64,000 bases of DNA. It comes from Rhodocytophaga rosea. GTDB taxonomy: Bacteria > Bacteroidota > Bacteroidia > Cytophagales > 172606-1. The stretch lies in the NCBI RefSeq assembly GCF_010119975.1, contig NZ_CP048222.1, positions 3,056,501 to 3,120,500 on the forward strand. The letters are read 5' to 3'. The translations under genes were made by a program, and so were the position numbers. Of the stretch, positions 24,743 to 50,037 are shown in pieces (the first letter of the stretch is position 1; every line of letters starts with the position of its first letter). Under the pieces are notes generated by a model that was not told where the DNA came from, searched no databases, and was given only the letters and a program-made list of their open reading frames with translations.

Positions 24743-25906
24743 CTATTTCTCTTGCCAGGCAACACCAGTATCTTTCCAGCTTCTGGAACGAGCTGAGTCA
24801 ATAACGGCTTCGCACACTTTCTGAGTTTCCAGGGCATCCTCAAAGGTAGGATGGCAAGGCTCTCCTGTTTCCAGGCTTTTCATAAAGTCGGCTGCCTGGT
24901 GAATAAAACTATGTTCATAGCCAATACCCAGGCCCGGTACCCACCATTTGTTCATATACGGTTGGTCGCCATCGGTTACATGAATAGAGCGCCATCCACG
25001 CACAATAGATTCATCCCGGTGATCGAAGTATTCCAGGCGGTTGAGGTCATGTAAATCCCAGCGGATAGAGGCATTAGCCCCATTTATTTCGAAGGTATAC
25101 AAAGCCTTGTGTCCACGGGCATAGCGAGTAGATTCAAATAATCCTAAAGAGCCGTTATCAAAATGGCAATGGAATATACAGGCATCGTCGATACCTACTG
25201 GTTCTACTTTGCCAGTCAACTGGTGCATCCGCTGTTTTACAAACGTTTCTGTAACAGCCGATACATCTTTTATACCTCCATTGAGCCACATGGCTGTATC
25301 AATACAATGTGCCAGTAAATCACCTGTTACGCCAGATCCTGCGGCTTCTACATCCATCCGCCAAGTTCCGGTGCCGCCTTGTGGTACATCTGCACTGATG
25401 GTCCAGTCTTGCAGGAAGTTGGCCCGGTAATGATAGATTTTCCCCAGTTTGCCTGAATCCACCAATTGTTTGGCCAGCGAAACGGCTGGTAAGCGGCGGT
25501 AATTGTACCAGACAGTATTGCGCACACCGGCTTTTTTTATCGCATCTACCATTTTCTGCCCTTCTGCCAGATTTCTGGAAAGAGGTTTTTCGCACAGAAT
25601 CATTTTACCGGCTGCCGCTGCGGCAATGGCAATTTCGGCATGGGTATCATTGGGTGTACAAATATCTACGGCATCAATATCTTTGCGGTTGATTACGGCT
25701 TTCCAGTCGGTTTCGGTAGATTCGTAGCCCCACTGCTCGGCAAAAGCCTGTACTTTATCTTTGCTGCGGGCACATACGGCTTTGAGTACCGGACGGTAGG
25801 CCAGATCAGGGAAAAAATCACCGATGCGTTTGTATCCGTTGGAATGGGTCCGGCCCATAAAACCTGTTCCTATTAATCCTATTCTTACTTCTTTCTTTTG
25901 ACTCAT
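24743..25906 (-). CDS. Gfo/Idh/MocA family NAD(P)-dependent sugar oxidoreductase
   Basis: 387 residues. The N-terminal Rossmann fold carries [28 protein letters not shown] is the family E-K-P motif holding the catalytic lysine, and the substrate domain includes [17 protein letters not shown]. Such enzymes oxidise or reduce sugar hydroxyls, often at C3. It is the last gene of a four-gene minus-strand operon with a TIM-barrel isomerase, a cupin and a DUF4432 epimerase. A palindromic repeat separates it from the preceding gene. Confidence 0.92.
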
Positions 25907-25958
25907 GTGTTTTAGTGTGATTTAACAAGTAGATGAAAAGGCATTTGGGTTCATAATT

Positions 25959-26092
25959 AAGTGAATGAATGAGTGATTGAGAGAATGAGTGATTACTGAT
26001 TTAAGTATTTTTTATAAAAATCGTCATTTACTTACACACTTATTGACTCCTACACTATACTTCACTCAATCTCTCATACGCTCATTCACTTT
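25959..26092. repeat. Imperfect inverted repeat with TGAATGAGTGA units
   Basis: The left arm (25959-25992) and right arm (26061-26092) are complementary apart from one 4-nt gap and a few mismatches. The arms are built of short TGAA/TGAG units. The right arm runs into the stop codon of the isomerase gene. It is probably a non-coding REP-like element inserted in the operon. Confidence 0.55.
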
Positions 26093-27155
26093 ACTGCCCG
26101 ACTGCTACTAATTTCTCTTTTTCTGCCTCAGACCAGCCATGTGCCTGGCGTACTTTAATGAGGGTAGCCAGAATATCGTTCCAGGTTTGCTGACGCATCA
26201 TTACCTCATTGGGGAACATACAGCCATCCCAGCAGATGTGTTTAAATGCTTTGGTCAGGTTGCCGTTTTCATCCCGCAGCCAGTAGCCTGCATCGTTTAC
26301 TACATCAAGTTTTCCATTGGGATCTGTTGCCTGGCAGTGGCGGCCAGTTTTATCATGAGAACCTGAACCGAATACCGTTCCATCATTCTGCGCTACGTGA
26401 AAGTCAAATGTATACGGGCGGAGGGCTTTTGTAATGGTTTTCAGGCCATCAGTTAGGGTGTTGCGGTCTTTCCAGTCGAAGTTTTCCGGCAAAATGCGGT
26501 CTTCCGGATGGTTATAGCCCATCAGGTACAATAAGGTATGTGCCATATCTGCCTGGAATCCCATGTTCGGGCGGTTTACTTGTTGCAGTGTATTAAGCAT
26601 GGTGCGCCAACTGTGCATTCCACCCCAGCAGATTTCTCCTTCGGCAGCCAGTTTTTCGCCAAAATCTGCGGCTACATCGCAGGCTTCCTGAAACGTTTGC
26701 ACAATCAGTTTCTGGTTATTTACCGGATCTTTTTCCCAGTCATGCGGAGAACTGGCAGAATCAATCCGTACCACACCATAGGGACGAATGCCTATATCAC
26801 GTAATACTTTTCCAAAATGGCAAGCTTTACGAACCATTTCTACAAATGTGGCCCGGTCATCCTTACTTCCTAAAATCGGACCACCCCAGATGGGTGCTAC
26901 CAGGCTACCAACTTTCAGGTTTAGGTTGCCTATTTTCTCGCCCAGGCGCTTAATATCATCATCCGACATATTGATGTTGATGTGTGGGTCTAACAGACCC
27001 AGATCTACGCCATCGAATTTCACCCCATTTACTTCTGCTTTGGCTGTCATATCCAGCATGGTATCAAAGGGAATGGGTGGTTCTGAGTTGGCACCTTTTC
27101 CTACAAGGCCAGGCCATGTGGCGTTGTGGAGTTTAGGAAAATTATTTTCGCTCAT
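26091..27155 (-). CDS. Sugar phosphate isomerase/epimerase family TIM-barrel protein
   Basis: 354 residues, xylose-isomerase-like TIM barrel (AP-endonuclease family 2 fold). Metal-site candidates lie in GEICWGGMHSW, GFQADMAHTL and TFDFHVAQNDG. Relatives act as isomerases or epimerases, or as lyases in 3-keto-glycoside breakdown. The place between a Gfo/Idh oxidoreductase and a sugar-isomerase-like cupin supports a sugar role, but the reaction cannot be fixed. Confidence 0.85.
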   Translation of the reverse strand: MSENNFPKLHNATWPGLVGKGANSEPPIPFDTMLDMTAKAEVNGVKFDGVDLGLLDPHININMSDDDIKRLGEKIGNLNLKVGSLVAPIWGGPILGSKDDRATFVEMVRKACHFGKVLRDIGIRPYGVVRIDSASSPHDWEKDPVNNQKLIVQTFQEACDVAADFGEKLAAEGEICWGGMHSWRTMLNTLQQVNRPNMGFQADMAHTLLYLMGYNHPEDRILPENFDWKDRNTLTDGLKTITKALRPYTFDFHVAQNDGTVFGSGSHDKTGRHCQATDPNGKLDVVNDAGYWLRDENGNLTKAFKHICWDGCMFPNEVMMRQQTWNDILATLIKVRQAHGWSEAEKEKLVAVGQ

Positions 27156-27346: not shown

Positions 27347-28570
27347 TTACAGTTTCAGATCGGGATTATTTGGGCCGAAATGTTTGAGCATGACGATAGG
27401 GTCATTTTTAGAATAATTGGTGATCTGAACGCCTTCTTTAGCCGCCTTTTCGGTAATAAAGAATTCGTCGTTGGTAAGCTGACCATAGCGGATTAAGGTA
27501 GGAGTTTCAATGTCCCAAACGCCCATTTTGCCATGTCCCTGCATCATAATGATTCCATAAGCCGCACTGTCTTTAATAGTTACGGTAGCTCCAGGCAGTA
27601 CCGTGAGTTCTTTGGCGCTATACGCTTCGGATTTATAGCAGATCCAGTTTTCGCTGTAGCCTTGTGATTTCATTTCATCTACCGGACGTACTGGTTTTGG
27701 ACGCATAAAGTGATTTTCCATAAAATTAGGATCTACGTTAGCGTCCCAGTCGATCACTTCTACCAGCTGGTCATAGTCGCCCATTCTTTCTTTGGGTGTA
27801 CCATTCCATAACAATTCTTCGGGAATTACGGCATCGTTTACCAATGACTGATACATGGCAAAAATATCGGATGCTTTCTGAGGTTCATACGTACACAAAC
27901 TTCCAGGTGCATGCAATATTCCCGGAGGTACATCCCAGCCAGTGCCTGGTTCTAAGCGGTAAGCCGAAGAGAAATTAGTGATTTTATTGTCGCCTTTGGT
28001 AAAATTGGCCAGACATTCCCGGATCTGTGCTTTAGTTGTTCCAGGGGCAATGCCAAAGAAAGTATAAGGAAAATCGCCACCATGATTATTGAGTTGAGGT
28101 GGGAAATAATACGCTTCCGGCTTCCCGTTTTGGCCTACCAGTTTGGCATGTTCATCATTATGATGGATGTGGTGCGGAAGTGGTCCTTTGTTATCGAAAA
28201 ACTTAGAATACATCGGCCAGGATTTATACTGGTTCCACAAGCGGTCACCAATAATAGCTCCTTTTAATTCATCAATGGCATCTTTCAGCAATATTTGCAC
28301 TTCTTTGTTTCCATCATTAAAAACGATGGCGCTTAAACCTTCATTTTTGCCGGTTAGGGGACCATTTTTTGCCGGAGTTGTGGAAGAAAGCCAGCGTTCA
28401 TCAATGCCTCCCCGTTGTCCGCCCAGCACATAATAATCGTCCGGATGGAGTTTAATGCGCCTGCCAGGAACACAGAAGGAACGGGGTACCCAGGTGGGTG
28501 CCAGCCGCAATATGCCTTTTCCCTGGTCTAAAGCTCTTTCCGCTACACTTGTTTTTTCCATTGTTTCCAT
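27347..28570 (-). CDS. Mannose-6-phosphate isomerase-like cupin protein
   Basis: 407 residues. The segment HHIHHNDEHAKLVGQNGKPE holds the His, Lys and Glu residues typical of class I phosphomannose isomerases, and PPGILHAPG provides a further conserved His. The C-terminal third is a second cupin-like barrel (LPGATVTIKDSAAYGIIMMQ). Sugar isomerisation is expected, perhaps on a non-phosphorylated or keto sugar given its partners. Five bp separate it from the DUF4432 gene. Confidence 0.8.
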   Translation of the reverse strand: METMEKTSVAERALDQGKGILRLAPTWVPRSFCVPGRRIKLHPDDYYVLGGQRGGIDERWLSSTTPAKNGPLTGKNEGLSAIVFNDGNKEVQILLKDAIDELKGAIIGDRLWNQYKSWPMYSKFFDNKGPLPHHIHHNDEHAKLVGQNGKPEAYYFPPQLNNHGGDFPYTFFGIAPGTTKAQIRECLANFTKGDNKITNFSSAYRLEPGTGWDVPPGILHAPGSLCTYEPQKASDIFAMYQSLVNDAVIPEELLWNGTPKERMGDYDQLVEVIDWDANVDPNFMENHFMRPKPVRPVDEMKSQGYSENWICYKSEAYSAKELTVLPGATVTIKDSAAYGIIMMQGHGKMGVWDIETPTLIRYGQLTNDEFFITEKAAKEGVQITNYSKNDPIVMLKHFGPNNPDLKL

Positions 28571-28575
28571 ATCAA

Positions 28576-29649
28576 TTATGCGTTAGGTATGTTTGATTGT
28601 TTTAAAAATTCATTAATGGTTTCGGATGTATGTAATACTTCCATTTCCAGGTCGTATACTTTGCTTTCGCCTGGTTGCAAGTGGATAAGCGTGTTTTCTG
28701 CCCTTGCTTTTGCTTGCCCGATGGGTGGATGGGTACCTGGTTCGAGGCCGAGTACATATTCGCCTTTGCCCCAGTGCTGCCAGTTGGTAAGCCAGGGCAA
28801 TTGCCCTTTCTGAAATTTCATTTTAACTGCCAGACCAATAGAAGCATTATGCAAACCACAGGTCCAGAATCCGGATTGGTCAGCAGCAGGCTCTATAAAG
28901 CAGGCTTCTTCCCCACCACCGCTATGATCATCCAAAGGTGCCGGACATTTCCGGAAGTTGTTTCCTTCCCTGAAAATTTTATTGGGCTTGCCATCGTAGC
29001 GGGCTTGCCAGTTGCCGTTCCAAAGAATATCTGTTCCTTCATCTACCAGCGGCCATCCAAAATTCAGATGATAGAGCAGCATATGTGGCGTAGCGGTATT
29101 TGCCCGATTAATTACTTCATCCCGGATACGGATAACTGCCTGTCCTAAAGTGCCGGAAATAGTTCGTCTCAGTTCCAGACTGGGGCCAAAGACCTGGGTT
29201 TGTTTGATAATTCCGGTAATACTCATTTCAAGTTTACCAGCTGCCGGATCAGGTTGAATAATCGATTCTATCTCTGCCGGGGTATTGCTGATACGCCCGT
29301 GTAAGCCCCGTTCACCAAATTCATCTTTCTCAGGGCCACCTACATGATTCAACCCGCAGGTAGTAAGTAAACCTCCGGCGAAGGTACGGAGCCAGTCTAT
29401 GCCCTGGTCAGAAAACGCTTGTGGCGTTGTAATTCCTACATGACTGATCCATGCTAGGCTGTGCTGGTTGTAGAATGCATCCACAATATCCATTGCCCTA
29501 TCTATCACTACTTTGTATCGTAAACCAGTGCCGGTATTAATCCAGGCGATACGGTTTCCACGCCCTGGCCCATTGTCGATAACGGACGTTTCTATGCCTC
29601 CCAGTTGTGCCGGATTAGATATCTTATTATGCCAGGATTGAGATGCCAC
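28576..29649 (-). CDS. DUF4432 family aldose 1-epimerase-like protein
   Basis: 357 residues with the galactose-mutarotase-like fold of DUF4432. Recognisable parts are VVIDRAMDIVDAFYNQHSLA, TCGLNHVGGPEKDEFGERGL and LHGRISNTPAEIE, with His and Glu candidates for anomer interconversion. First gene of the operon. A TATGTTTG -7 box (minus strand) and the shared 18-bp motif lie 116-147 bp upstream of its start codon. Confidence 0.85.
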   Translation of the reverse strand: MASQSWHNKISNPAQLGGIETSVIDNGPGRGNRIAWINTGTGLRYKVVIDRAMDIVDAFYNQHSLAWISHVGITTPQAFSDQGIDWLRTFAGGLLTTCGLNHVGGPEKDEFGERGLHGRISNTPAEIESIIQPDPAAGKLEMSITGIIKQTQVFGPSLELRRTISGTLGQAVIRIRDEVINRANTATPHMLLYHLNFGWPLVDEGTDILWNGNWQARYDGKPNKIFREGNNFRKCPAPLDDHSGGGEEACFIEPAADQSGFWTCGLHNASIGLAVKMKFQKGQLPWLTNWQHWGKGEYVLGLEPGTHPPIGQAKARAENTLIHLQPGESKVYDLEMEVLHTSETINEFLKQSNIPNA

Positions 29650-29764
29650 CTATATATGTACTTTAGTTTTGAGCCTTAAGTATAGCTTAATTTTACAGGA
29701 AATAAAACAAAAAATATATCAATATAAATTAATAAATTCTTGTTTTAGTTATAAATGTAAGGAG

Positions 29765-29772
29765 CAAACATA
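29765..29772 (-). promoter_or_regulatory. -7 box of the DUF4432-cupin-isomerase-oxidoreductase operon
   Basis: The minus strand reads TATGTTTG, an exact TAnnTTTG. The shared motif at 29779-29796 starts 7 bp further upstream and covers the place where the -33 box should be. Confidence 0.55.
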
Positions 29773-29778
29773 AAGCAA

Positions 29779-29796
29779 CCTTCCTGTACTCTCCTG
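29779..29796. promoter_or_regulatory. Shared 18-bp motif, candidate GntR operator (copy 1)
   Basis: CCTTCCTGTACTCTCCTG. Fifteen of 18 positions are identical to the sites at 50280 and 52722. It contains a CCTG direct repeat with a 10-bp period around a GTAC core. It overlaps the expected -33 region, so binding would block the promoter. Confidence 0.65.
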
Positions 29797-29959
29797 AGAG
29801 AACAATATTTTGGTGGAAATTAAAAGTTTGAAGGATTGAGGTTGGCGAGCAGGATTAGAATGGTGTTTAATATTATTAGCTGCCTGATCTCAACAATTAA
29901 ATAAGAAACGATTTTAGATGTCTTAATCCAGCTTTGTAAAGCTGAGTGTAATAACTTTA
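29797..29959. other. Intergenic, nothing further recognised
   Basis: Together with the promoter and operator at 29650-29796 this makes a 310-bp spacer. No RNA gene, terminator or coding signal was seen. Confidence 0.4.
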
Positions 29960-30378
29960 TTAAGCAAAATGGCTGAATCCCAAAGTGAATCGTAATTCAT
30001 TAGTCATGCTTTCTAAAGTACTTTTCACCAGAGAAGATACAAATAAATAGATTGAATCATACTTCCAAATCTGAGTCTCATCTCCTGTTATATCCTGGAT
30101 GGTTGTAGGAGTAATAGCATCATAATATCTAATTACGAATATTCATTCCATATTTGCCCAGTAACATGATTGATGATAGTTCTTGGACGGATCGTCACCT
30201 GATCAGAACTCAATGCCGAAAATGGAGCCAGAATAGAATGATGTACCAGAATGTATTGATAACCGTTAATGAGCGGAGTTAACTCTCCCGCTTGCATAAT
30301 GCGAAAATTCTCATCTGGCAATCTCCAAAGTAACAGCTGGCTAGACTCTTTATTGGATACATTCCAAGGTTTAACCAT
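29960..30378 (-). pseudogene. Hypothetical protein, probably frameshifted
   Basis: It starts 8 bp after the DUF1501 stop codon, so it is probably in that operon. The intact first part (30133-30378) encodes 81 residues, ending TGQIWNEYS. The other frame overlapping its end stays open for 60 codons (YYDAITPTTIQDITGDETQI, ending LRFTLGFSHFA) to a stop at 29960. One added base near 30135-30142 would join them into a 139-residue protein. No family was recognised. Alternatively only the 81-residue product is made. Confidence 0.45.
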
Positions 30379-30386
30379 ATAGTTTC

Positions 30387-31814
30387 TTATGCAAATAGTG
30401 CCATTTCAGGTTTTCCCAGGCCATCAGGCGTAGTATAGAATGGGCGTTCTTCCACCACATAATGCGCATCGCCTGGAATACCCAAAGCATGGTAAATGGT
30501 CTGGTGGATTTGGTCTATTTTAATAGGTTTTTCAATAGTTTTACAAGGCCGTTCATCTGCAGTTTTTCCATGCACATTGCCTTTTTTAATGCCTCCACCA
30601 AACATGAGTATAGAACAACCATCGGTAAAATGCCGGTGCATGCCGTAATTTTTTATATCGGTAATTACATCCGGCTGGTCTACCTGGTCTTGTACTTTAG
30701 CACCAGGGCGGCCTTCCATAAGCATATCCCGGCTAAATTCACTGGCTAAGATCACGATGGTACGGTCCAGGCGGCCTGTTTTTTCCAGGTCTTTGATCAA
30801 CTGGGCTACCGGTCCATCAATTTGCTTTTTCATGTCTTTTAGCCTGGTGTGCCCGTTTTCGTGCGTATCCCATCCCATGAAAGGTTCGTATTCCGTGGTT
30901 ACACTGATAAAACGTGCGCCTTGCTCCGTAAGCCTGCGAGCCATCAGGCAGCCTAATCCAAAGCGGCCAGTATTATAAATATCATAAATCTCTTTGGGTT
31001 CCTGGCTCAAATCAAAAGCTTTGGCCTCCGGAGAATTCAGCAGGATATAGGCCTGTTCCATCGATCGTTTGAGCGATTCTTTCTGGTAATCGCTACCAAA
31101 TTCCCCAAAAGGACTCTGGCTGACCAGTTCATTATACAATTGATTCCGCCTCTCAAATCTTTTCGCAGACATGCCTACTGGCGGACGCACACTTTCCAGG
31201 CCTTGTGATGGATCTGGAATAAGGAAAGGACCAAATTCGTTGCCTAAAAATCCGGCAGTATGAAATGCTTTTAACTCTTCCCCCTCTCCTACTGTAAACC
31301 GTTGCCCAATATCAATAAAGGCAGGAATGACCGGATTCACCGGACCCATTTCTTTGGCTATCCAGGCACCGATATGCGGAGCGGCTACGGTTTGCGGCGG
31401 TTCATAGCCAGTATGCCAATGGTACTGATGCCTGGAATGTAAAATGTGGCCCAAATCCGCTGCTACGTAGGAGCGGATAATAGTCCCCCGATCCATTACA
31501 GAACCTATAGATTGTAATCCTTCTGAAAAAGACACACCATCCAGGGCAGTTGGGAAAGATTTAAAAGTACTCAGCACCCGGTTTGATTCCAGGCCCTTAT
31601 CGAAAGGCGTATACTTTTTGGGATCAAAGGTTTCGGTATGTGCCATTCCTCCGGCCATCCAGAGCAAAATCACAGTATCTGCCTTTGTATCTACTCCTTT
31701 TTTTGTGTTGCACGAAGATAAAAAACTCGTCATTGGAGCACCTGCTGTCATAGCTGCCAAAGTAGCGGCGCTGGCTTTCTTCAGAAAATCTCTTCTATTC
31801 CAATCCGTCTTCAT
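30387..31814 (-). CDS. DUF1501 family protein with twin-arginine-like signal
   Basis: 475 residues. The N-terminus WNRRDFLKKASAATLAAM resembles a Tat signal and is followed by a Cys (FLSSCN) that may be lipidated. The domain has an alkaline-phosphatase/sulfatase-like core with LLWMAGGMAHTETFDPK and MGWDTHENGH. DUF1501 proteins nearly always pair with DUF1549/DUF1553 cytochrome genes, as here (33-bp gap); the biochemical role is unproven. It belongs to the sigma/FecR/SusCD transcription unit by orientation. Confidence 0.88.
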   Translation of the reverse strand: MKTDWNRRDFLKKASAATLAAMTAGAPMTSFLSSCNTKKGVDTKADTVILLWMAGGMAHTETFDPKKYTPFDKGLESNRVLSTFKSFPTALDGVSFSEGLQSIGSVMDRGTIIRSYVAADLGHILHSRHQYHWHTGYEPPQTVAAPHIGAWIAKEMGPVNPVIPAFIDIGQRFTVGEGEELKAFHTAGFLGNEFGPFLIPDPSQGLESVRPPVGMSAKRFERRNQLYNELVSQSPFGEFGSDYQKESLKRSMEQAYILLNSPEAKAFDLSQEPKEIYDIYNTGRFGLGCLMARRLTEQGARFISVTTEYEPFMGWDTHENGHTRLKDMKKQIDGPVAQLIKDLEKTGRLDRTIVILASEFSRDMLMEGRPGAKVQDQVDQPDVITDIKNYGMHRHFTDGCSILMFGGGIKKGNVHGKTADERPCKTIEKPIKIDQIHQTIYHALGIPGDAHYVVEERPFYTTPDGLGKPEMALFA

Positions 31815-31847
31815 AGTAAAAAAATTTATTAAACATGCATTCTATTT

Positions 31848-34376: not shown

Positions 34377-34518
34377 TAAGCGTACTATTAAAAAATGTAC
34401 TATAAGCTTACCAGCTACCAGAACTTATCTAATTTATAGAGGCAAACTCTTCACTATAATTTAAAATAACCCGAATTTAAGCAAATACCTTCTAAAAATG
34501 AAAGATATTCTTTGAAAT

Positions 34519-34572: not shown

Positions 34573-34580
34573 AGTATAGC

Positions 34581-36083: not shown

Positions 36084-36104
36084 AGATCAGGTGATGGCTA
36101 GGTG

Positions 36105-40625: not shown

Positions 40626-40832
40626 GAATAGGTGTGCTATATTTAGTAAATAGGATGAAAAGAGATTTACCCTAACCAGAGGGTCAGTTTTTTTATAATT
40701 TTTCTAAAAATTGTCTTACTTATTGGCATCTGTACAGATCCAACCAGAGACTGTCCCTTTGCAATGTGCTGAATCAAATTATTGGGAGTGGTTGGATAAT
40801 GATAAATTACTCTAGAGGAAATAGCTGCAAAA

Positions 40833-40883
40833 AAATAGTCAGTAGCCACTATGTGTCTTCCACATAATAACTACTGACTATTT
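40833..40883. repeat. GTCAGTAG palindrome (copy 1)
   Basis: A 13-bp perfect outer stem (AAATAGTCAGTAG with CTACTGACTATTT) plus an inner TATGTG/CACATA stem with loop TCTTC. It lies 15 bp after the stop of the sigma gene and shares GTCAGTAG with hairpins at 45257 and 62855. It may terminate or process the sigma-factor message. Confidence 0.65.
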
Positions 40884-40897
40884 ACTGTATAGAGCTT

Positions 40898-41476
40898 TTA
40901 GAACTGAACGATAAAAATCAGAATAAGCAGATCTGCCAGGCTATACCGCAGGAATTTGAGGGCCTTACTCAGATGATATTCAACAGTTTTAACCGGCATT
41001 TGTATTTCTCTGGAAATTTCAGGAATGGTAAACCCATGCATCCGGCTCAGGATAAACACTTTTCTGGTTGTTTCCGGGAGTACTTCAATCTGCTGATCGA
41101 GCAAGGTGTTCAATTCATCAAAAGCGACCTGCTGCTCTGTTGTATTGGCCATTACCGGTTCATGTAATGCTTTATTCACCGCATATTGTTCACGGACAAC
41201 CTGCTTATCATAATGGTCATAGATCTTATGACGAATGGCCTGGTACAAGTAGCCTTTTAAATTCAGTTGCTCCGGGAGTGTAGTACGTTTGAGCCATATA
41301 CTCACAAAAACTTCCTGCAGGATTTCCTGTGCCGTTTCTCTGGACCGGGTATAATTATAGGCGATGGAAAAAAGCTTTGCCCAGTAATGATTGTAGATTT
41401 TTTCAAATCCTTTGGCATCACCACTTCTCAGGCTTTCTACCCATTGGCTCTCTTCAGCAAAGGTCACTTGTTTCAT
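40898..41476 (-). CDS. ECF RNA polymerase sigma-70 factor
   Basis: 192 residues with sigma region 2 (GFEKIYNHYWAKLFSIAYNY, ILQEVFVSIW) and region 4 (RKVFILSRMHGFTIPEISRE, VEYHLSKALKFLR). It is the cytoplasmic output of the SusC-STN/FecR cascade and presumably transcribes susC-susD of unit 1. The 272-bp spacer to fecR holds a strong hairpin, so sigma and fecR levels may be uncoupled. Confidence 0.94.
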   Translation of the reverse strand: MKQVTFAEESQWVESLRSGDAKGFEKIYNHYWAKLFSIAYNYTRSRETAQEILQEVFVSIWLKRTTLPEQLNLKGYLYQAIRHKIYDHYDKQVVREQYAVNKALHEPVMANTTEQQVAFDELNTLLDQQIEVLPETTRKVFILSRMHGFTIPEISREIQMPVKTVEYHLSKALKFLRYSLADLLILIFIVQF

Positions 41477-41538
41477 ACCGTTCGTTGATAAAGAATCCTG
41501 ATTATACTCGAATCAATACACTATTTCCATTGATAAAC

Positions 41539-42348
41539 CTACAATTGCTTCAGCCGGATGTTGCGGTACTCTACTTTCATAGGAGGGCCCACATGCACCT
41601 GTACACCCAGATAGCCGCTCATTTTCCGGTTAGCCGCATCGTTATCCGTTACATCACTGATCAGAGTTCCATTGATATAATGCTGCAACCGGTTCCCTTT
41701 TATTACCAGATGAATCTCATTCCAGTCCTGGCTTTTCACGACCTTTTCCAGGGAGGCAGCCGTTCCTATGGAATCCGTTACGCTCAGTCCGCTCCAGGCA
41801 TTTCGCTTCACATCGTCGCGCAGGTTGGCCGACGGATTTTTTAGCGGATCAATGGTTGTCTTTTGTCCACGGTAAGCCAGGGTAGTTCTGCCTCTTTCCT
41901 CATAATTCTGACCGGTATAGCGGTTTTTTCCATCAATATCAGCCTGGTAACCTTTGAGGGCAAAAGGTGGATCTGATAGTTTTTCGCTGCGGTAATTGAT
42001 GCCACTATTGCCGGTTTCTGTGATTTTAAAATCCAGCTTCAATTCAAAATCTCCCGGCTGGGCACCCTGGTAAATAATAAAAGTATTTGCTTTCAGCAGT
42101 TTATCCGGCGTAATTTCCCCCACCAGCGTGCCGTTTTCAGCTCTCCAATAGTTAGCATCTCCTTCCCATCCGTTCAGGGTTTTGCCATCAAATATCTGCA
42201 CAAAACCTTCCTTGTCTTTTTTAGCCTTAGACTGGCTTACAGCCGTTGTTTTGCAACCACTGGTTAGCAGCACTGCCAACAGGAGTGCTACTAACGAAAA
42301 TGGTTTATATGATTTTTTTATCATGTGATCAACATTTTTAAATATCAA
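41539..42348 (-). CDS. DUF1080 family 3-keto-disaccharide hydrolase, lipoprotein
   Basis: 269 residues. The start may be the upstream ATG at 42348 or the internal ATG at 42324; the latter begins closer to the hydrophobic segment. The lipobox is LTSGC. The concanavalin-like domain shows IFDGKTLNGWEGD and DFKITETGNSGINYRSEK, the DUF1080 hallmarks. Family members hydrolyse 3-keto-glycosides, matching the oxidoreductase genes in the neighbourhood. Last gene of the SusC2 operon, 6 bp after the heme protein. Confidence 0.87.
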   Translation of the reverse strand: MIFKNVDHMIKKSYKPFSLVALLLAVLLTSGCKTTAVSQSKAKKDKEGFVQIFDGKTLNGWEGDANYWRAENGTLVGEITPDKLLKANTFIIYQGAQPGDFELKLDFKITETGNSGINYRSEKLSDPPFALKGYQADIDGKNRYTGQNYEERGRTTLAYRGQKTTIDPLKNPSANLRDDVKRNAWSGLSVTDSIGTAASLEKVVKSQDWNEIHLVIKGNRLQHYINGTLISDVTDNDAANRKMSGYLGVQVHVGPPMKVEYRNIRLKQL

Positions 42349-42354: not shown

Positions 42355-45102
42355 CTACTTAGCCGTTCCGGAGGCTGCTGCCTGGCCATTACCTTTGTAT
42401 ACCTGGTGATCTTTATTCCCGCCTGCCATCAGATAGGCCATAAAGTCTTTTAGTTCCTCGGCATTCAGGCGGTTAATTAATCCAGCAGGCATCAGCGAAA
42501 CACGGGAATACTTGGTACTTACCACATCTTTCTTAGGAATTTCGCGAAGCATGTCTGGTGCAAAAGGGTTTTGAGAGACGGAATAATTCTGCTCATTCTC
42601 GTTGATGAGCCTGCCTAATACAGAACTGCCATCTTTCATCAAAAACACGGTAGAAGCATACTGGTCAGAAACCTCTTTATTGGGGTCCATAATATGCTCC
42701 AGCATGTCGCCAGTAGAGAACCTGGTACCTAATTGTGTCAGATCGGGGCCCATGTTGCCCCCTTCACCCTTCATGGTATGGCAGGTATTACAACGTACGG
42801 CTGCAAACATCAACTTGCCATTTTCAAAATCCCGGTTCACCAGGCCACTGTCTATTACAGCTTTGGCATCTTCCATGGTCCATCTTCTGTAAGGGCCTTT
42901 GGGAGAAGGACCACTTGCCAGGTCATTGCCAGACTTAGATAATAACTCCTCTCCGGATAGTTTGCTGTAATAATCAAATTTATCTTTCGAAACATTAGCT
43001 AAAGCCGACTGACGGGCTTTGTTGATAAAGCCTACATAACTCATTCCTCCTTTGTATTCGAAAGCTTTCTTAAACCAGGCAAAATACTTCTCTTGCAGTT
43101 CTGGAGTCCATCCGGTTTTTGAGGTACTCAACACCGTGGCATAATAGGTCTGCTGGGCTGGCGGCACTTTTGCCAGCATATTGGCAATATCCATTCCGTA
43201 TTGGGGGTTTCTCAGAATCAGGTCCTGGGAAGCGCTCACCGTTTTATCACCCTGATCGTCTTTTGCATTTTCCAGTAAAGCGAGGGTTTTTTCAACCGCA
43301 CCCGGTGCTTCTATATACACAAGTACTTTGCTGAGAGAGCGGTTTATTGCATTGGTTTTGCCAGGATAATGAGGATTAATATGAGCGACTACTTTGTCTT
43401 TAGCAGCACCTTCCGGTTTTCCCATGCGGGCAAATACCAGTTCGTAGGCACGTAACAAATCAATCTGCTGTGATTCAGATAATTTACCATAATCAATACC
43501 CGATAGGGAAGTAAGAATCTGGTTTTTTACGTCTGTTTTTCCCTGACGCGCCAAGGCAATAGATGCCTGAATTAAGGCTTGCGGATCTTTTTCTGCCAAT
43601 GCACGTTGCTGCCACTCAGCAACAGGCTGGTGTTCTATGGCTATACGGGCGGCATAGCGGATGTGGCGGTCTTCATGTTTGAGGTTTGGCCAGGCAGCAT
43701 CTACCGCTCCCTTTTGAGGAGTTCCATGATATTGCTCCAGGCTTCTTCTTAACTTGGTTTCTTCATTTACATCTTCTGTCGCCGTATTGGCTACCAAGGA
43801 TACATTCTTCTGATTGGAAGCTACATTGCCTTTAGCATCTCCATAAGACACTCTGTACAGATCGGAATCCAATCTACGGCCACCAGTAAGGAAGTATAAA
43901 GAACCATCCGGACCAAACGTGCCATCTGTTAAGGGCAGCGGCGAACCAGAAATAAATTCTTCAGCTTTGGCACCATAAGAAGCACCTTTTGGGTCAATCT
44001 GAATGGCATAGATAATACCAAAACTCCAGTCAAAGGCATACAAGGATTTTTTGTATTTTTCGGGAAAGTGAGAGGTTTTGCCATGTTCCAGACTGGTAGG
44101 AGATCCTTGTCCGATGTTGATAATCGCAGGCAGGTTATCTGGATAATCTGGTGACCACTTGCTGTTTCCGGTACGCCAGCCAAATTCAGCACCGCTGGTA
44201 ACATGATTAATACGGGTTGGCCGGTACCAGGGCATACCAAAGTCCCACTCCATATCTGCATCATAGGCAAACAGTTCTCCTCTTTCGTCAAAAGCAATAT
44301 CAAAGGCATTCCGGAAACCGGCCGCAATTAACTCCCATTTGTTGGTATTAGGATCTACTTTGGCAATCCAGCCACCAGGTGCCATCCGGTCGTTGGCATG
44401 ACCTCTGGGGTCTTTGATCAACGGGAATATATTGTCTTCCTGCCAGTTGGTGGGCAAGCGATGCGCTTCCATAGGAGGTACATCTGTATGGTTACCGGCA
44501 ATTACATACAAAGATTTTCCATCCGGAGAAAGCTTAATACTGTGTGGTCCATGTTCTCCTTCTCCTTTCAGTTGTTTCAACTCGGTAACTTTATCAAACT
44601 GATCGTTGCCATCTGTATCTTCCAGGCGATAGAATCCACTTAGTTTATCAAACTCTTTATTTTCCCGTTCGGCAGTACCCCGGCTGTTTACCATTACATA
44701 CAAACTATTGAACGCATACAATAAGCCCTGGGCATATCCCATCCCCACAATGCTATCTGCTACCTGGCCAATGGCCAGTTTTTCTACTTTGGGTTTGGAA
44801 GAATCGCCTATAGGAGGCAGTTGCAACCGATACAAAGCGCCATACTGGTCAGAAGTAATCATGCGGCCTTTGTCATCGAAGGTCATGGCTACCCAGGAGC
44901 CCTGCTCATTTTCAGAGGGGCTGTACAGGTGTTCGATCCGGAAACCTTCCATAGACTTAATCTTGTCAATTTTCGGATTACCGGTATTATTACTCTGTAC
45001 ATTAGCCTGTTTGGTATCTTTCTCGTTATCGCAGGATGTGCCTATTAGACTACATACTGCCACCGAAGCGAGAAGTTTAAGAAAAGGAATGGTTTTTAAC
45101 AT
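42355..45102 (-). CDS. PVC-type heme-binding beta-propeller lipoprotein
   Basis: 915 residues. The lipobox ends IGTSC. A beta-propeller resembling glucose/sorbosone dehydrogenases covers about 50-430 (GGWIAKVDPNTNKWELIAAG, FRNAFDIAFDERGE). A helical repeat region follows, then a C-terminal cytochrome c domain with CNTCH and a distal Met candidate. It probably oxidises a sugar or passes electrons in the periplasm or at the outer membrane. It sits between susD unit 2 and the 3-keto-disaccharide hydrolase gene. Confidence 0.88.
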   Translation of the reverse strand: MLKTIPFLKLLASVAVCSLIGTSCDNEKDTKQANVQSNNTGNPKIDKIKSMEGFRIEHLYSPSENEQGSWVAMTFDDKGRMITSDQYGALYRLQLPPIGDSSKPKVEKLAIGQVADSIVGMGYAQGLLYAFNSLYVMVNSRGTAERENKEFDKLSGFYRLEDTDGNDQFDKVTELKQLKGEGEHGPHSIKLSPDGKSLYVIAGNHTDVPPMEAHRLPTNWQEDNIFPLIKDPRGHANDRMAPGGWIAKVDPNTNKWELIAAGFRNAFDIAFDERGELFAYDADMEWDFGMPWYRPTRINHVTSGAEFGWRTGNSKWSPDYPDNLPAIINIGQGSPTSLEHGKTSHFPEKYKKSLYAFDWSFGIIYAIQIDPKGASYGAKAEEFISGSPLPLTDGTFGPDGSLYFLTGGRRLDSDLYRVSYGDAKGNVASNQKNVSLVANTATEDVNEETKLRRSLEQYHGTPQKGAVDAAWPNLKHEDRHIRYAARIAIEHQPVAEWQQRALAEKDPQALIQASIALARQGKTDVKNQILTSLSGIDYGKLSESQQIDLLRAYELVFARMGKPEGAAKDKVVAHINPHYPGKTNAINRSLSKVLVYIEAPGAVEKTLALLENAKDDQGDKTVSASQDLILRNPQYGMDIANMLAKVPPAQQTYYATVLSTSKTGWTPELQEKYFAWFKKAFEYKGGMSYVGFINKARQSALANVSKDKFDYYSKLSGEELLSKSGNDLASGPSPKGPYRRWTMEDAKAVIDSGLVNRDFENGKLMFAAVRCNTCHTMKGEGGNMGPDLTQLGTRFSTGDMLEHIMDPNKEVSDQYASTVFLMKDGSSVLGRLINENEQNYSVSQNPFAPDMLREIPKKDVVSTKYSRVSLMPAGLINRLNAEELKDFMAYLMAGGNKDHQVYKGNGQAAASGTAK

Positions 45103-45314: not shown

Positions 45315-46817
45315 TTAAAAATTAGGTGTGAGTGCAGCTTCATCTGCCGGAAGCCCATAGTATATGCTTATGTTATTAAAGGCATTTCCACGGGGAGCAG
45401 TACCTTCCGGATAGTAATAGGCTTGCGGGTTGGCTTTGATCCGGTTTCCATAGGCTGTAATGGTTTCGATAGCCCGTCCGGTTCTCACCAGATCAAACCA
45501 GCGTTTGTTTTCAAAAGCCAGTTCTACTCTTCTTTCTCTGAAAATAGCTTCTTTCAGGTCTCCGCCTGCAAAATTTCCCAGGTTGGCACGATTTCGTACC
45601 TGGTTTAAATACCCTTCTGCTTCTCCATTTTTGCCCTGCTCATTTAAGGCTTCTGCTAAAAACAGTAGTACTTCAGAATAGCGGTAGATATGCCAGTTGG
45701 TGCCGTGGTTATTATTTAACGAGTGCGTTTTTGCAAGCTTTTTAATATAAGGATATACCTTGTTAAGTCTGGCACTACCGCTCAAAGTCACATATCCAAT
45801 AGAAGCATCTTCCCGCTCGTCTCCATCTTCGTAGGCAGCAATAATATCAGGAGTAGGCGTATTATTTCCTTCTCCATCCAGTGGCTGCGGATTAGAGGTA
45901 CCAGTAATAGGCGCAATTTCAGTCGGGCTGATGGGGCGAGGCAACATCTGGTAAATAAAGTTACCGTTCAAACCGGCAGCTCCTTCCAGAAACTGAACTT
46001 CAAACACAGATTCACTATTATTCTTATTAGCTGCATTGCCGGAGAAGGCATCTGCATAATTAGGAATTAAAGCGTATTCATTACTATTTACTACTGCTTT
46101 CAATAGTGTTTCGGCTTCAGCCCACTTTTTCTGCACAATGTATACATTGCCCAATAATGTCTGGGCGGCACCAGAGGTAACCCTGCCAGCTTCTTGTTTG
46201 GATTTTAGCGGCAATAATGGAATCGCTTCCTGAGTATCTTTGATGATCTGCGCAAATACTGCCTCTCTTTCGGCCAATGGCTGGGCAGCATCCGCACGTC
46301 CGGTAGCCGGAGTAAGGTGCATAGGAACTTTTTCAAAAAGCTGTATCAAGGTAAAATAAGCTTGCGCCCTCAGAAACAAAGCCTGTCCTTTTATATTGTT
46401 TTTGGAATCCGCATTAAACTCTACCTTATCAATCTGCGACAAAATCTGATTGACACGGGCAATAATCAAATATTCCTGCCGGTAGGCATTCAGTACGTGC
46501 GTATTGGAAGTAACGCCATTGGCTGTAGGAACTGCAAAATCAGCGATGTCTTCCTGCTGCTCAGTAGCACCAAACAGCGGGTTCCGGGAATAATATGTAT
46601 TATCAGAGTGCATTTCACCCAGCAGCCACATCCTGTCATTCACAAGGGTGCGCAATGGTACATAGGCGGCATTCACAGCTTGTTGAAAATCGGCTTCTTT
46701 GGTGAAAAAGACAACAGAGCTCAACTCAGTTTCAGGAACTATGGTTAAAAAATCATCTTTGCAGCTGGTAAGTGTAACCCCTACAAGCAGACCAGATAAT
46801 ATGAGTATTTTTTTCAT
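45315..46817 (-). CDS. RagB/SusD family outer-membrane lipoprotein (unit 2)
   Basis: 500 residues with the lipobox TLTSC and KDDFLTIVPE. The helical N-terminal part (LFLRAQAYFTLIQLFEKVPM) and the SusD C-terminal motif (ERRVELAFENKRWFDLVR) are clear. It pairs with the SusC gene 40 bp upstream. Two hairpins follow before the heme-protein gene, which could lower expression of the downstream genes relative to susCD. Confidence 0.95.
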   Translation of the reverse strand: MKKILILSGLLVGVTLTSCKDDFLTIVPETELSSVVFFTKEADFQQAVNAAYVPLRTLVNDRMWLLGEMHSDNTYYSRNPLFGATEQQEDIADFAVPTANGVTSNTHVLNAYRQEYLIIARVNQILSQIDKVEFNADSKNNIKGQALFLRAQAYFTLIQLFEKVPMHLTPATGRADAAQPLAEREAVFAQIIKDTQEAIPLLPLKSKQEAGRVTSGAAQTLLGNVYIVQKKWAEAETLLKAVVNSNEYALIPNYADAFSGNAANKNNSESVFEVQFLEGAAGLNGNFIYQMLPRPISPTEIAPITGTSNPQPLDGEGNNTPTPDIIAAYEDGDEREDASIGYVTLSGSARLNKVYPYIKKLAKTHSLNNNHGTNWHIYRYSEVLLFLAEALNEQGKNGEAEGYLNQVRNRANLGNFAGGDLKEAIFRERRVELAFENKRWFDLVRTGRAIETITAYGNRIKANPQAYYYPEGTAPRGNAFNNISIYYGLPADEAALTPNF

Positions 46818-46857
46818 TTGAATGTTGTTAAAATATAAATGATTACATTTTATCTGA

Positions 46858-49800
46858 TTAGAAATTCACGTTAACCCCCAGGCTGTAGGTACGTGGAACC
46901 GGATAATTGGAAAAATCAATCCCCTGGCTTAAGTTACCACCATCGCCGTTTCCGTCTCCTTGTGCACTGGTTTCAGGATTTGGTCCACCCCAGTATTTGG
47001 TAAATATATATACCTGCTGTACAGAGGCATACACCCTGGCTGATTTGATAAACTTAGTAATGCCGCCAATGGTATAACCCAGCGTGATATTTTTAATGGT
47101 AAAGAAAGAAGCATCAGCAATAAAGCGGCTGTTCATCCAGTCTCTTTCGATACCGGTTACGTTGCCACCTCCAACCGTAGTACCATACATTCCTTTGCCT
47201 GGATTCTCAGGAGAGCGGAAGCGGTATTTTACGCCATCCACTAAATTGAATACCCCATCCAGGTTAGCAGTGCTATACAGGTGGCGAACCAGAAGTTCAT
47301 TGCCATAAGAACCGGAACCTACAATGCTTAGGTCAAATTTGCCATAATTAAAGTTATTGGTAATACCATAAGTGAATTTAGGGAAAGGATTACCGATAAT
47401 AACCCGGTCGTCAAAATCACCTCCATTGGTAATAATGCCATCTCCATTCTGATCCGTTAACTTGATACTGCCCACTACAGAGCGGCCAGGTACTTGTGGT
47501 GAATTAGCCAGATCCTCGGCATTCATGTACACGCCTTGCGCCTGATGTCCATAGAACTGGCCAAATGGTTTTCCTACCTGGGTAATGTGGAAAGTGCCAT
47601 ATACTCTATCTATGCCTTCTGCCAGGGCTACTACTTTGTTGCGATTAATGGAAACGTTGGCATTGGTGGTCCATTTTAATTTGCCTTCCAGGTTCCTGGT
47701 ATTAATGGCAAATTCATGTCCCCAGAATTTAATTTCACCGATGTTATCATTAAAGTTAGTAAATCCGGATTCCTGAGGAATCTGTACGCTGTAGAGCAGA
47801 TTGGTCGTTTTCTTGGTATAAAAATCATACAGGAACTGGATGCGGTCGCTGAACAAACCCAGATCGATACCGGCATCAAACTGACTGGTGGTTTCCCATC
47901 CTAAATCAGGATTAGCCAGAGAGATAATGCCTGCTCCGGGTGCTACATTATTTCCAAACACGGCATTAATTGTATTGTTAATACGGGCATACTGGGTATA
48001 ATTACCAATATTGTTATTACCGGTTACCCCAAAGCTAGCTCTGAGTTTAGCAAAAGAAATCTGAGAAACATTCTGCAGGAAAGGCTCATCAGACACTACC
48101 CAGCCTACTGATGCAGATGGGAATACGCCCCAGCGGTTATTGGCACCAAACCGGGAAGAACCATCACCCCGCACAGCAGCCGTAAACAAATATTTTCCTT
48201 TAAAATTGTAAGTCAATCTGGAGAAAAGTGAGGTTAAACTCCATTCCTGCACGTCGCTAATGGTGCCTGCCCGGTTGATATTGATACCGCCTTGAACAGT
48301 AGGGAGCCGGTCGTCGGCATAGGTATCTGCCTGAATACGGGTTCTGTCTCTGCGGAACCATTGATTGGAGAATCCACCGAGTAATTCAAAATTATGACTG
48401 CCAAAGCTCTTGGAAAAGGTAGCCAGGTTTTCGTTCAGCAGGGTAACATCTTCCTGGTTCTCCCGGATCGAAACAGCCGTAGTAGGGATAGGTGTATTAA
48501 TGTTGCTAGTGGCTGTAGATGGGTTAAAGAAGAAAAACTTCTGGTTTAATGTCTGCACATTCACTGTAGATTTGAGCGCCAGACCTTTCATAGGCGAGTA
48601 TTGAATATAGGCATTGGATAATAAATTAATCTGCCTGGTTTCGTTGGTCAGTTCATTGGCCGCTCTTACCCAGTTAGGATAGGCAAAAATGTTCCCTGTA
48701 TTTGCTGGAAGCCGGTTGAACAAAGTAAGTTCTCCGTTTTCATCATAAATCGGCATGACTGGCCAGGTATGCAGGGCATTAAATAAAATACCTGTTCCCC
48801 TGTCTCCGTCTGTTCTGGGCGTATTGTCAAACACATAATTGGGGGCAATATTTAAACCCACGCGTACTTTATCAGATATTTCATAGTCCATATTTAGGCG
48901 GCCTGAATATCTCTTGTATTTGTTATTTAATACTACACCTTGCTGATCGTATATACCGGCAACCAGAGAGGTACTCAATTTTTCTTTATTAGAGGTAATG
49001 CTCAGGTTGTAGCTTTGCAGCGGAGCTTCTCTGAGTAAAGCATCATACCAGTCGTTATTTTTACCTCTGTATATCGAAGGATCTTTGAAAACGTCAGGTA
49101 CGGGGTCGGCTACGGGACTAGGGGAAGCGGCATTCTGATCCGTGTAGTATTCTTTTTTAAACTGGGCAAATTCTTCTGCATCCATCATATCAATTCTGCC
49201 CCGCATCGGCACTTTCTGAATACCGGCAAAAGTATTGAAGCTCACATTGGTTTGGCCGGGTTTACCTTTTTTGGTAGTAACCAATACTACGCCATTGGCT
49301 GCCCTCGATCCATACAAAGAAGTAGAAGCGGCATCTTTCAGAATGGTAATCTCTTCTATTTCATCTGGGCTAATGAAATTGATATTTCCGTTAATTGGGA
49401 AACCATCCACTACATATAAAGGATCGCTGCCACCAGTAACCGATAACTGGCCACGGATACGGATATTCATGCCCTGGCCGGGTTTACCTGTGGTCTGGTT
49501 GATCTGAACACCTGCCAGTCTGCCTTGCAGTTTCTGGGCTACGGTAGATACTGGTATGTCTTTCAGGTCAGCAGAGCTCACAGTTTGTACAGCACCTGTT
49601 ACTTCTTTTTTCAACTGGCTGCCATATCCTACTACAACTACTTCACTCAGCGACTGGATATCAGCCACTAAAGATACATCGATAGTAGAGCGGCCATTAA
49701 TGGCAACTTCTTCAGTGGTATATCCGATATAAGAGAAAACCAATGTGCCAGTAGCATCAGGAACCGACAGCGAATATTTTCCGGTACCATCAGTAGTTGT

Positions 49801-50037
49801 ACCGTTCGTAGTACCTTTCAGAAGTACGTTCACACCAGGTAAACCTTGATTAGTATCGTCGGTAACCCTACCTGTAATGGTAACGGCTACAGGTTTGCTG
49901 GCTGGTATCATCGCCAGCAACGATTGGGGTTGCAGTACCCGATCGGCTTTAAGCGATTGAGCGCTGGCCGGGAGATACATACACCCTGCAAGCGCCAGCA
50001 AAACCAGTGGTTGTAAGGGGAGTTTATGTCTTTTCAT
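46858..50037 (-). CDS. SusC/RagA TonB-linked outer-membrane transporter without STN domain (unit 2)
   Basis: The start is set at 50037 (MKRHKLPLQPLVLLALAGC), which gives a signal peptide; an upstream in-frame ATG at 50136 would put 33 unrelated residues ahead of it. The mature protein has the carboxypeptidase-regulatory-like domain (VTGRVTDDTNQGLPGVNVLL), the plug with SEVVVVGYGSQLKKEVTGAV and a barrel ending in GVNVNF. It lacks an STN domain, so it is not part of sigma/anti-sigma signalling. A candidate operator lies 242 bp upstream of the start. Confidence 0.95.
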   Translation of the reverse strand: MKRHKLPLQPLVLLALAGCMYLPASAQSLKADRVLQPQSLLAMIPASKPVAVTITGRVTDDTNQGLPGVNVLLKGTTNGTTTDGTGKYSLSVPDATGTLVFSYIGYTTEEVAINGRSTIDVSLVADIQSLSEVVVVGYGSQLKKEVTGAVQTVSSADLKDIPVSTVAQKLQGRLAGVQINQTTGKPGQGMNIRIRGQLSVTGGSDPLYVVDGFPINGNINFISPDEIEEITILKDAASTSLYGSRAANGVVLVTTKKGKPGQTNVSFNTFAGIQKVPMRGRIDMMDAEEFAQFKKEYYTDQNAASPSPVADPVPDVFKDPSIYRGKNNDWYDALLREAPLQSYNLSITSNKEKLSTSLVAGIYDQQGVVLNNKYKRYSGRLNMDYEISDKVRVGLNIAPNYVFDNTPRTDGDRGTGILFNALHTWPVMPIYDENGELTLFNRLPANTGNIFAYPNWVRAANELTNETRQINLLSNAYIQYSPMKGLALKSTVNVQTLNQKFFFFNPSTATSNINTPIPTTAVSIRENQEDVTLLNENLATFSKSFGSHNFELLGGFSNQWFRRDRTRIQADTYADDRLPTVQGGININRAGTISDVQEWSLTSLFSRLTYNFKGKYLFTAAVRGDGSSRFGANNRWGVFPSASVGWVVSDEPFLQNVSQISFAKLRASFGVTGNNNIGNYTQYARINNTINAVFGNNVAPGAGIISLANPDLGWETTSQFDAGIDLGLFSDRIQFLYDFYTKKTTNLLYSVQIPQESGFTNFNDNIGEIKFWGHEFAINTRNLEGKLKWTTNANVSINRNKVVALAEGIDRVYGTFHITQVGKPFGQFYGHQAQGVYMNAEDLANSPQVPGRSVVGSIKLTDQNGDGIITNGGDFDDRVIIGNPFPKFTYGITNNFNYGKFDLSIVGSGSYGNELLVRHLYSTANLDGVFNLVDGVKYRFRSPENPGKGMYGTTVGGGNVTGIERDWMNSRFIADASFFTIKNITLGYTIGGITKFIKSARVYASVQQVYIFTKYWGGPNPETSAQGDGNGDGGNLSQGIDFSNYPVPRTYSLGVNVNF

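Follow-up and report, generated by a model that had tools for sequence, protein, structure and literature searches.

How might a bacterium take apart a glycoside with a gene set that holds no classical glycoside hydrolase, and which sugar would such a set serve? The question is raised by a locus of Rhodocytophaga rosea (Bacteroidota), found in a stretch of 64,000 nucleotides (positions 3,056,501 to 3,120,500 of contig NZ_CP048222.1; hereafter the window) of an 8.98-Mb single-contig genome, for which a sequence-only reading had proposed that sugars are first oxidised and then cleaved through 3-keto intermediates by enzymes encoded in two operons. Our analysis leads us to describe in the window a catabolic gene cluster of Bacteroidota, linked to the use of L-rhamnose, which would oxidise, instead of hydrolysing, a small rhamnose-type (6-deoxyhexose) glycoside, and we give this description an about even chance of being correct.

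Pfam and NCBIfam matches recovered every family that the sequence-only reading had named (a Gfo/Idh/MocA oxidoreductase, a TIM barrel, a DUF1080 protein, a heme-bearing propeller, SusCD in two pairs and a deoxy-sugar aldolase). The bicupin, DUF4432, PSCyt/DUF1501 and ECF/FecR genes had been absent from it. The minus strand carries every gene of the finding apart from a divergent GntR-type gene on the plus strand. Transcription begins with rhaEW (50543-52663), encoding L-rhamnulose-1-phosphate aldolase / L-lactaldehyde dehydrogenase, followed by the cluster's own SusC (46858-50136; PF07715, PF00593; a second Met would set the start at 50037) and SusD (45315-46817; PF07980), a lipoprotein-like beta-propeller protein with HEAT-like helices and a c-type heme domain (42355-45102) and DUF1080 (41539-42348; PF06439, 136 bits, cut-off 26.8), whose hydrophobic N-terminus ends in Cys. 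After an intervening block come DUF4432 (28576-29649; PF14486, 335.8 bits), a bicupin of 407 amino acids (27347-28570), a TIM-barrel isomerase/epimerase/hydratase-like enzyme (26091-27155; PF01261, 43 bits, cut-off 31.1) and the Gfo/Idh/MocA oxidoreductase (24743-25906; PF01408, 93.8 bits). Also as proposed, no classical glycoside-hydrolase family was matched in a Pfam scan of 20 proteins between 23056 and 57927, small and overlapping open reading frames (ORFs) lying outside the scan.

The two operons form one unit in related genomes. A scan of a genome collection with the bicupin gave 149 relatives, and all locus counts given here refer to the best 80 of them, in which the bicupin is 78-95% identical and whose labels are Bacteroidota except for one Eubacteriaceae bin. 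When the window proteins were mapped onto these loci, the order SusC-SusD-propeller-DUF1080-DUF4432-bicupin-TIM-Gfo recurred across relatives. Six core families (heme propeller, DUF1080, DUF4432, bicupin, TIM barrel and Gfo/Idh/MocA) are all present in 45 of the 58 loci of at least 19 kb, together with SusCD in 32 and in one exact run in 18; two of the 13 incomplete loci (L045 and L091) do hold the missing genes by tblastn, these having been lost in ORF calling. DUF4432, bicupin and TIM barrel are adjacent on the same strand in 52 of 57 loci. An even draw of 395 genomes of the phylum gave a bicupin match at E 1e-20 or better in 19: ten above 800 bits (R. rosea included), one at 494 bits and eight near 250 bits. 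In the nine other genomes above 800 bits, DUF4432, TIM barrel and Gfo adjoin the bicupin without exception, DUF1080 is nearby in all nine and the propeller in eight. The eight distant bicupins and the 494-bit match (G207, on a 3.7-kb contig) were left out of the cluster counts.

It is this synteny elsewhere that makes the link, since by family count the grouping in R. rosea is weak: the whole genome has 31 DUF1080, 47 Gfo/Idh/MocA and 38 AP_endonuc_2 (TIM-barrel) matches, and DUF1080 and the TIM barrel of the window are ∼14 kb apart. Gene density was rejected as proof of grouping on account of this richness. In Rhodocytophaga aerolata, a sister species, the block is continuous, with DUF1080 and DUF4432 ∼0.1 kb apart, and alignment against it delimits an 11.9-kb insertion in the window (29635-41545). 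Because the R. aerolata block is unbroken, the split in the window is secondary, and the proposal of a single pathway laid out over two operons is supported; we regard the gene set and the unity of both operons as well supported. The inserted genes are, in transcription order, an extracytoplasmic function (ECF) sigma factor (40898-41476; PF08281, PF04542), a FecR anti-sigma factor (39651-40625; PF04773, PF16344), a second SusC (36105-39563; PF07715, PF13715) and SusD (34581-36083; PF07980), a PSCyt1/PSCyt2/PSD1 heme protein with two CxxCH motifs, CYSCH and CASCH (31848-34376; PF07583, PF07587, PF07635), and its partner, a DUF1501 protein with a Tat-like signal (30387-31814; PF07394, 245 bits; TIGR01409). 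The PSCyt-DUF1501 pair is not foreign to the pathway, since it lies directly upstream of the propeller gene in seven of the 80 loci (L058, L073, L078, L082, L086, L088 and L093).

Several other genes often accompany the cluster in relatives. The most frequent are a monosaccharide ATP-binding cassette (ABC) transporter, the ATPase of which occurs in 33 of 80 loci, and a protein with FG-GAP repeats, which occurs in 21; in the window, a tRNA-His gene follows Gfo and no monosaccharide ABC transporter is found there. A psicose-epimerase-like TIM barrel joins the cluster in 18 loci, and an iolE-like TIM barrel recurs as a pair with an alpha/beta-hydrolase-like protein (19 loci each; L029, L031, L040, L089, L099 and others).

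A shared motif had been said to tie both operons to the deoxy-sugar aldolase, and this tie was found in R. rosea and again elsewhere. The motif CAGGNRNGTACAGGAAGG occurs on the minus strand upstream of the DUF4432 operon (29779-29796), upstream of SusC (50280-50297) and in the rhaEW/GntR promoter region (52722-52739), that is, three times in the window at up to two mismatches versus 0.05 expected, for a pattern derived from these same three sites. Searching the whole genome with CAGGNNNGTACAGGAAGG gave four exact and two one-mismatch matches, and no match genome-wide when the pattern was read backwards. Three of the four exact matches precede the two operons and rhaEW. The fourth, at 6323015, has a DEAD-box helicase gene nearby and was dismissed as a chance match, and inspection of the two one-mismatch matches showed no sugar gene under their control apart from one resembling an aldo-keto reductase (L105 stretch). 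Across the 80 relatives a looser search (at most one mismatch) found 52 sites, and 7 with the pattern reversed; of the 52, 14 are inside predicted genes and 22 lie 42-180 bases before SusC, PSCyt or DUF1080. The operator also stands 93-97 bases before PSCyt in six of the seven loci with the PSCyt-DUF1501 pair, the remaining one (L086) being cut by the locus end.

We then scored rhaEW upstream regions with a weight matrix built from 18 sites in cluster promoters and from no rhaEW site, and compared the scores with those of 94 background regions. The score exceeded the 99% background level in 12 of 20 genomes and the 95% level in 18 of 20, where several of the 20 also supplied a training site from a different promoter and where, in L166, rhaEW is not the operon head and the region scored is 95 bases. 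Strong operator sites were also found before two RhaT-like genes (L165 and L171). In R. aerolata the operator precedes both SusC and rhaEW, and its copy before SusC agrees in each of 20 bases with the window's copy before DUF4432, as would fit the takeover of a promoter at the time when the insertion split the operon. The GntR-type regulator (52827-53918, plus strand; PF00392, 52.7 bits; periplasmic-binding-protein-like PF13377, 20.5 bits, under cut-off) has relatives adjoining rhaEW in other genomes and presumably pairs with the operator. Placement of the cluster operons and rhaEW under one shared operator, and hence their apparent co-regulation with rhamnose use, is well supported by these promoter sequences, and such an operator makes it unlikely that the two operons respond to different substrates.

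The aldolase itself is a full-length member of the RhaEW family (NF006191, 1339 bits versus a cut-off of 1240; TIGR02632, 953 versus 568), whose activity has been shown with enzymes of Chloroflexus and Bacillus (PMC3870299). A RhaEW match of at least 500 bits occurs in 68 of 394 other sample genomes (hand count) and in all nine with a close bicupin (hypergeometric 8.6e-8, not corrected for kinship); the 500-bit cut was chosen after seeing the list, and taking all 122 matches among the 394 gives 2.1e-5. Within the order, RhaEW is present in 5 of 5 close-bicupin genomes versus 7 of 14 overall (0.0105, again uncorrected for kinship). It lies less than 25 kb from the bicupin in three of the nine close genomes (G083, G178 and G189). 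In Mongoliibacter and Cecembia loci (L082, L088 and L093), the cluster is followed by GntR divergent from RhaEW-RhaI-RhaB; in L082 RhaI stays under the TIGR02629 cut-off (486 bits versus 647), and the kinase reaches no more than 57 bits against the rhamnulokinase model. In G189 (L116, L177), as well as in two genomes of Chitinophaga (L160, L163), RhaB-RhaEW is divergent from GntR and the cluster.

A trace of the same arrangement probably survives in the window. R. aerolata has an intact RhaB-type gene between RhaEW and SusC, and in the corresponding interval of the window (50137-50542), at 50363-50434 on the minus strand, the last codons of such a kinase gene appear to be retained. The tblastn match (24 amino acids, 50% identity, E 0.25) is weak by itself; the protein score is 55 versus at most 54 in 300 shuffles, and a DNA alignment to R. 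aerolata running from the last kinase codons into the promoter scores 120, to which the promoter part contributes most, whereas none of 100 shuffles exceeds 29. The position strengthens this weak evidence, and we consider the segment a probable rhaB-type remnant.

In the scheme that we infer, for each enzymatic step, for the order of the steps and for the substrate, SusCD would import the substrate into the periplasm, where the propeller-cytochrome c lipoprotein would oxidise the sugar, probably at C3, and hand the electrons on to the heme that it carries, with PSCyt/DUF1501 as a possible further redox pair. Cleavage of the 3-keto glycoside by DUF1080 would follow, and the product would enter the cytoplasm, in many relatives through the monosaccharide ABC transporter encoded next to the cluster. 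In that compartment the product would be hydrated, epimerised or mutarotated by the TIM barrel and DUF4432, Gfo/Idh/MocA would reduce the 3-keto sugar, the phosphomannose-isomerase-like bicupin would make a ketose (L-rhamnulose), and RhaB and RhaEW would turn L-rhamnulose into dihydroxyacetone phosphate and L-lactate. GntR would sense the sugar and control the operator common to the cluster operons and rhaEW. Oxidation followed by cleavage is plausible in this scheme, as several of the families point to oxidation or to 3-keto sugars. Candidates for the glycoside 3-dehydrogenase that such a pathway calls for are Gfo and the propeller protein.

The bicupin is the least familiar member of the set. 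It has no Pfam match at E 1 and no NCBIfam match, its profile reached E 0.24 at best against PDB sequences, and a PF01238 search of 29 relatives, which considered it as a phosphomannose isomerase by sequence, gave no match. Nonetheless, His134, His136, Glu152 and His220 are invariant in 30 relatives, and the best 16 of 998 chains aligned to its predicted model, which is of low confidence (predicted local distance difference test, pLDDT, 60.7), are phosphomannose isomerases of type I (Z 14.2-11.8, followed by a row at 10.0). The best of these aligns with this low-confidence model over 259 residues at Z 14.2, with a root-mean-square deviation of 4.1 and 13% identity. The bicupin may resemble type I phosphomannose isomerases in predicted fold and in having an invariant His/Glu set, and differs from them in its missing Pfam match and low identity. 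L-Rhamnose is 6-deoxy-L-mannose, so that an isomerase of this fold would fit chemically.

Such an isomerase could have a role in genomes without RhaI. A search of 26 bicupin genomes detected RhaI in 23 and not in three (G189 and the two Chitinophaga; RhaA, FucI and AraA were not searched there), all three with RhaB-RhaEW beside the cluster. These 26 genomes were partly picked for RhaEW in the locus, which biases the linkage rate; the nine evenly drawn genomes are the fair sample. Where RhaI was not found, the ketose must come from another source, and the bicupin or the TIM barrel would be the obvious candidate. A bolder proposal, that the cluster is an undescribed respiratory rhamnoside route in which oxidative cleavage begins with the periplasmic propeller-cytochrome dehydrogenase, while the bicupin, as a novel L-rhamnose (or 3-keto-rhamnose) isomerase unrelated to RhaI, replaces it in the genomes lacking it, we hold only tentatively and consider doubtful.

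More distant bicupins (35-38% identity, eight genomes) occur in other surroundings. Six of their loci (L107, L108, L109, L110, L113 and L114) have similar gene lengths and order, and in the one scanned (L107) the neighbours are genes of GH10, GH13 and GH2 type and others for aldo-keto reductase, flavodoxin, cupin and FGGY kinase proteins. These bicupins would be a second branch of an undescribed isomerase-like family.

One alternative is that no glycoside is cleaved at all. An unusual free 6-deoxyhexose could be oxidised at C3, epimerised by the TIM barrel at the position adjoining the keto group and reduced again by Gfo to give L-rhamnose or L-rhamnulose, with DUF1080 as an accessory. The ABC transporter ATPase that follows Gfo in relatives is of a ribose/xylose type, which takes up monosaccharides (the family was assigned from one representative), and the recurring psicose-epimerase-like and iolE-like TIM barrels (representatives) would suit a route of epimerisations. 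A crude test for a hydrophobic, signal-like N-terminus, which cannot judge Gfo because its Rossmann motif stands right at the N-terminus and is itself hydrophobic, likewise points to cytoplasmic work: none of 79 bicupins and none of 72 TIM barrels has such an N-terminus, and 72 of 75 DUF4432 proteins lack it. Against this, the named relatives of DUF1080 have 3-keto glycosides as their substrates and 53 of the 58 long loci retain DUF1080, often beside the propeller, and SusCD suggests a larger substrate. We consider this conversion of a free 6-deoxyhexose unlikely, though to be kept in view beside the cleavage of a rhamnose-type glycoside that we favour.

The cytoplasmic enzymes bear on a second alternative, that of an ordinary 3-keto glucoside pathway like that of Bacteroides thetaiotaomicron or of levoglucosan, with rhamnose genes nearby by chance or through a motif common to related GntR regulators. 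The best NCBIfam model for Gfo is indeed levoglucosan dehydrogenase (NF052479, 333.6 bits, under the cut-off of 650), and its best solved relatives are 4h3v and 6a3f, the latter presumably a levoglucosan dehydrogenase; Lys107 (in EKP), Asp196 and His200 are invariant in 22 Gfo sequences and kept in the 6a3f alignment. Several tight groups of DUF1080 with a TIM barrel and/or Gfo occur elsewhere in the genome, and a similar motif precedes an SGNH-propeller gene in L030. However, Gfo scores only 34.2 and 33.6 bits in the BT_2158 and BT_2159 families (cut-offs 750 and 650), a single operator precedes the cluster and rhaEW genes across genomes, and RhaEW accompanies the close bicupin in nine genomes of nine, so that an ordinary glucoside route seems quite improbable. 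The TIM barrel, a candidate for the 2-hydroxy-3-keto-glycal hydratase of a 3-keto-glycoside pathway, with Glu174, Asp203, His206, His253 and Asp310 invariant in 29 sequences, had no NCBIfam match at 1e-3 and no profile match to solved structures below E 0.39, and DUF4432 we take to be a family of the mutarotase fold.

For the periplasmic half of the scheme, the sequence-only reading had seen in the heme protein a dehydrogenase with its own electron carrier, and what stands behind that claim now is a predicted fold. The protein scores 98.9 bits in TIGR02603 (cut-off 68.15) and, below the cut-off of 122.2, 62 bits in TIGR02604. A signal-like N-terminus is followed by a propeller at ∼40-420, helical repeats and a c-type heme. 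Its predicted model (pLDDT 76.9) matches best pyrroloquinoline quinone (PQQ) glucose dehydrogenases, followed by PQQ aldose dehydrogenases and AA12 pyranose dehydrogenases (Foldseek E 4.6e-13 to 8re0; TM-scores of 0.55-0.73 to glucose/aldose dehydrogenase targets). His187, Arg264 and Asn265 are invariant and, as candidate ligands of PQQ and calcium, resemble the known site. The heme motif CxxCH is present in 63 of 63 propeller proteins, and the crude test finds a hydrophobic N-terminus in 58 of 63 propeller proteins and 51 of 64 DUF1080 proteins.

DUF1080 is, by membership, in the 3-keto-disaccharide hydrolase family and is related to solved proteins of it. His252 of its QxH motif is invariant in 23 relatives, and weak stretches of profile alignment place it on the QDH histidine of the solved relatives. 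The H275N variant of a B. thetaiotaomicron 3-keto-O-glycoside lyase is deficient in hydration (PMC13273386), and it would be a guess that His252 is the same residue as H275. That the propeller-cytochrome protein instead hydrolyses the glycoside itself, with DUF1080 as a helper and no 3-keto intermediate, could be argued from the verrucomicrobial metagenome clone Lac161_ORF7, which has the same TIGR02604 propeller, HEAT and CxxCH plan and is reported as a beta-galactosidase hydrolysing lactose with a Km of 1.8 mM, but nothing in the available part of that assay account excludes oxidation (PMC5342196), the propeller of the window is closest in prediction to PQQ sugar dehydrogenases and its CxxCH is invariant, all of which leaves hydrolysis very improbable.

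Several observations weigh against an oxidative rhamnoside pathway as we have drawn it. The assignment of a rhamnoside or other 6-deoxyhexose as substrate comes from regulation and gene company and from no enzyme. Eight of the 20 rhaEW promoters fall below the 99% background level, two of them at background level, and among genomes with more distant bicupins RhaEW at 500 bits or more is found in only one of nine (G011), which limits the rhamnose link to the close bicupin branch. R. rosea has its own complete rhamnose operon at 342-356 kb (L128), which lacks the cluster operator; it holds RhaB, RhaI and RhaEW by similarity and, by appearance, LutCBA and a RhaT-like permease. Conservation of the enzymes proposed for oxidation and cleavage is also incomplete: DUF1080 is missing from five of the 58 long loci and the propeller, kept in 52, from six; a same-family relative (L027) retains the bicupin and the propeller and lacks DUF4432, TIM barrel, Gfo and DUF1080; and DUF1080 and the propeller of L117 and L124, only 32-44% identical to those of the window, may be other members of their families. 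Finally, the cluster has one Gfo, versus two in the levoglucosan and B. thetaiotaomicron systems.

Comparison with known systems shows which parts are shared. The pathway of B. thetaiotaomicron BT2156-BT2159, reportedly the subject of a 2024 Nature paper, works through 3-keto-glycosides and likewise has DUF1080, Gfo/Idh/MocA and a TIM barrel in one Bacteroidota locus; it differs in that the Gfo of the window is far under the BT_2158/BT_2159 cut-offs and in that the heme propeller may oxidise in the periplasm. The levoglucosan pathway (LgdA/LgdB1/LgdB2/LgdC), whose dehydrogenase reaction has been described (PMC7676230), resembles the cluster in its dehydrogenase, which is the best model for the Gfo of the window, and in a sugar-isomerase-like TIM-barrel partner, and the cluster adds DUF1080, the heme propeller, the bicupin, DUF4432, SusCD and the rhamnose link. 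The lactose 3-keto pathway of Caulobacter (LacABC and DUF1080; PMC9007349) would share periplasmic oxidation feeding a periplasmic DUF1080; no LacABC-type match was found among the scanned window proteins, and the propeller may fill that place. With L-rhamnose catabolism by RhaI-RhaB-RhaEW, the cluster shares RhaEW in the window, RhaI-RhaB-RhaEW in relatives and the operator, whereas its core genes are not met in the available part of that account (PMC3870299) and RhaI was not found in three of 26 bicupin genomes. A literature search found no paper describing the cluster, most subscription papers being outside its reach.

Oxidation-first breakdown has already been described for glucosides, lactose and levoglucosan. 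If our description is correct, a version linked to rhamnose use and spread across Bacteroidota would extend such breakdown to deoxy sugars, would give testable functions to the bicupin, DUF4432, the propeller-HEAT-heme proteins and PSCyt/DUF1501, and could explain how the two Chitinophaga and one other genome, which carry genes of RhaB and RhaEW type, can do without an isomerase of the RhaI type.

Three further observations concern the rest of the genome and the neighbourhood of the cluster. Tight groups of DUF1080 with a TIM barrel and/or Gfo/Idh/MocA near 685, 800, 1153, 1265, 5544 and 7408 kb are candidates for further 3-keto-type loci, several in one genome. The large protein of the rhamnose operon at 342-356 kb we take, without a family scan, to be a GH106-like rhamnosidase. 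Outside the finding, a secreted-looking protein of 706 amino acids (53942-56062, minus strand), which adjoins an HGSNAT-like acyltransferase and has only sub-threshold Chondroitinase_B and beta-helix matches, is possibly a polysaccharide lyase.

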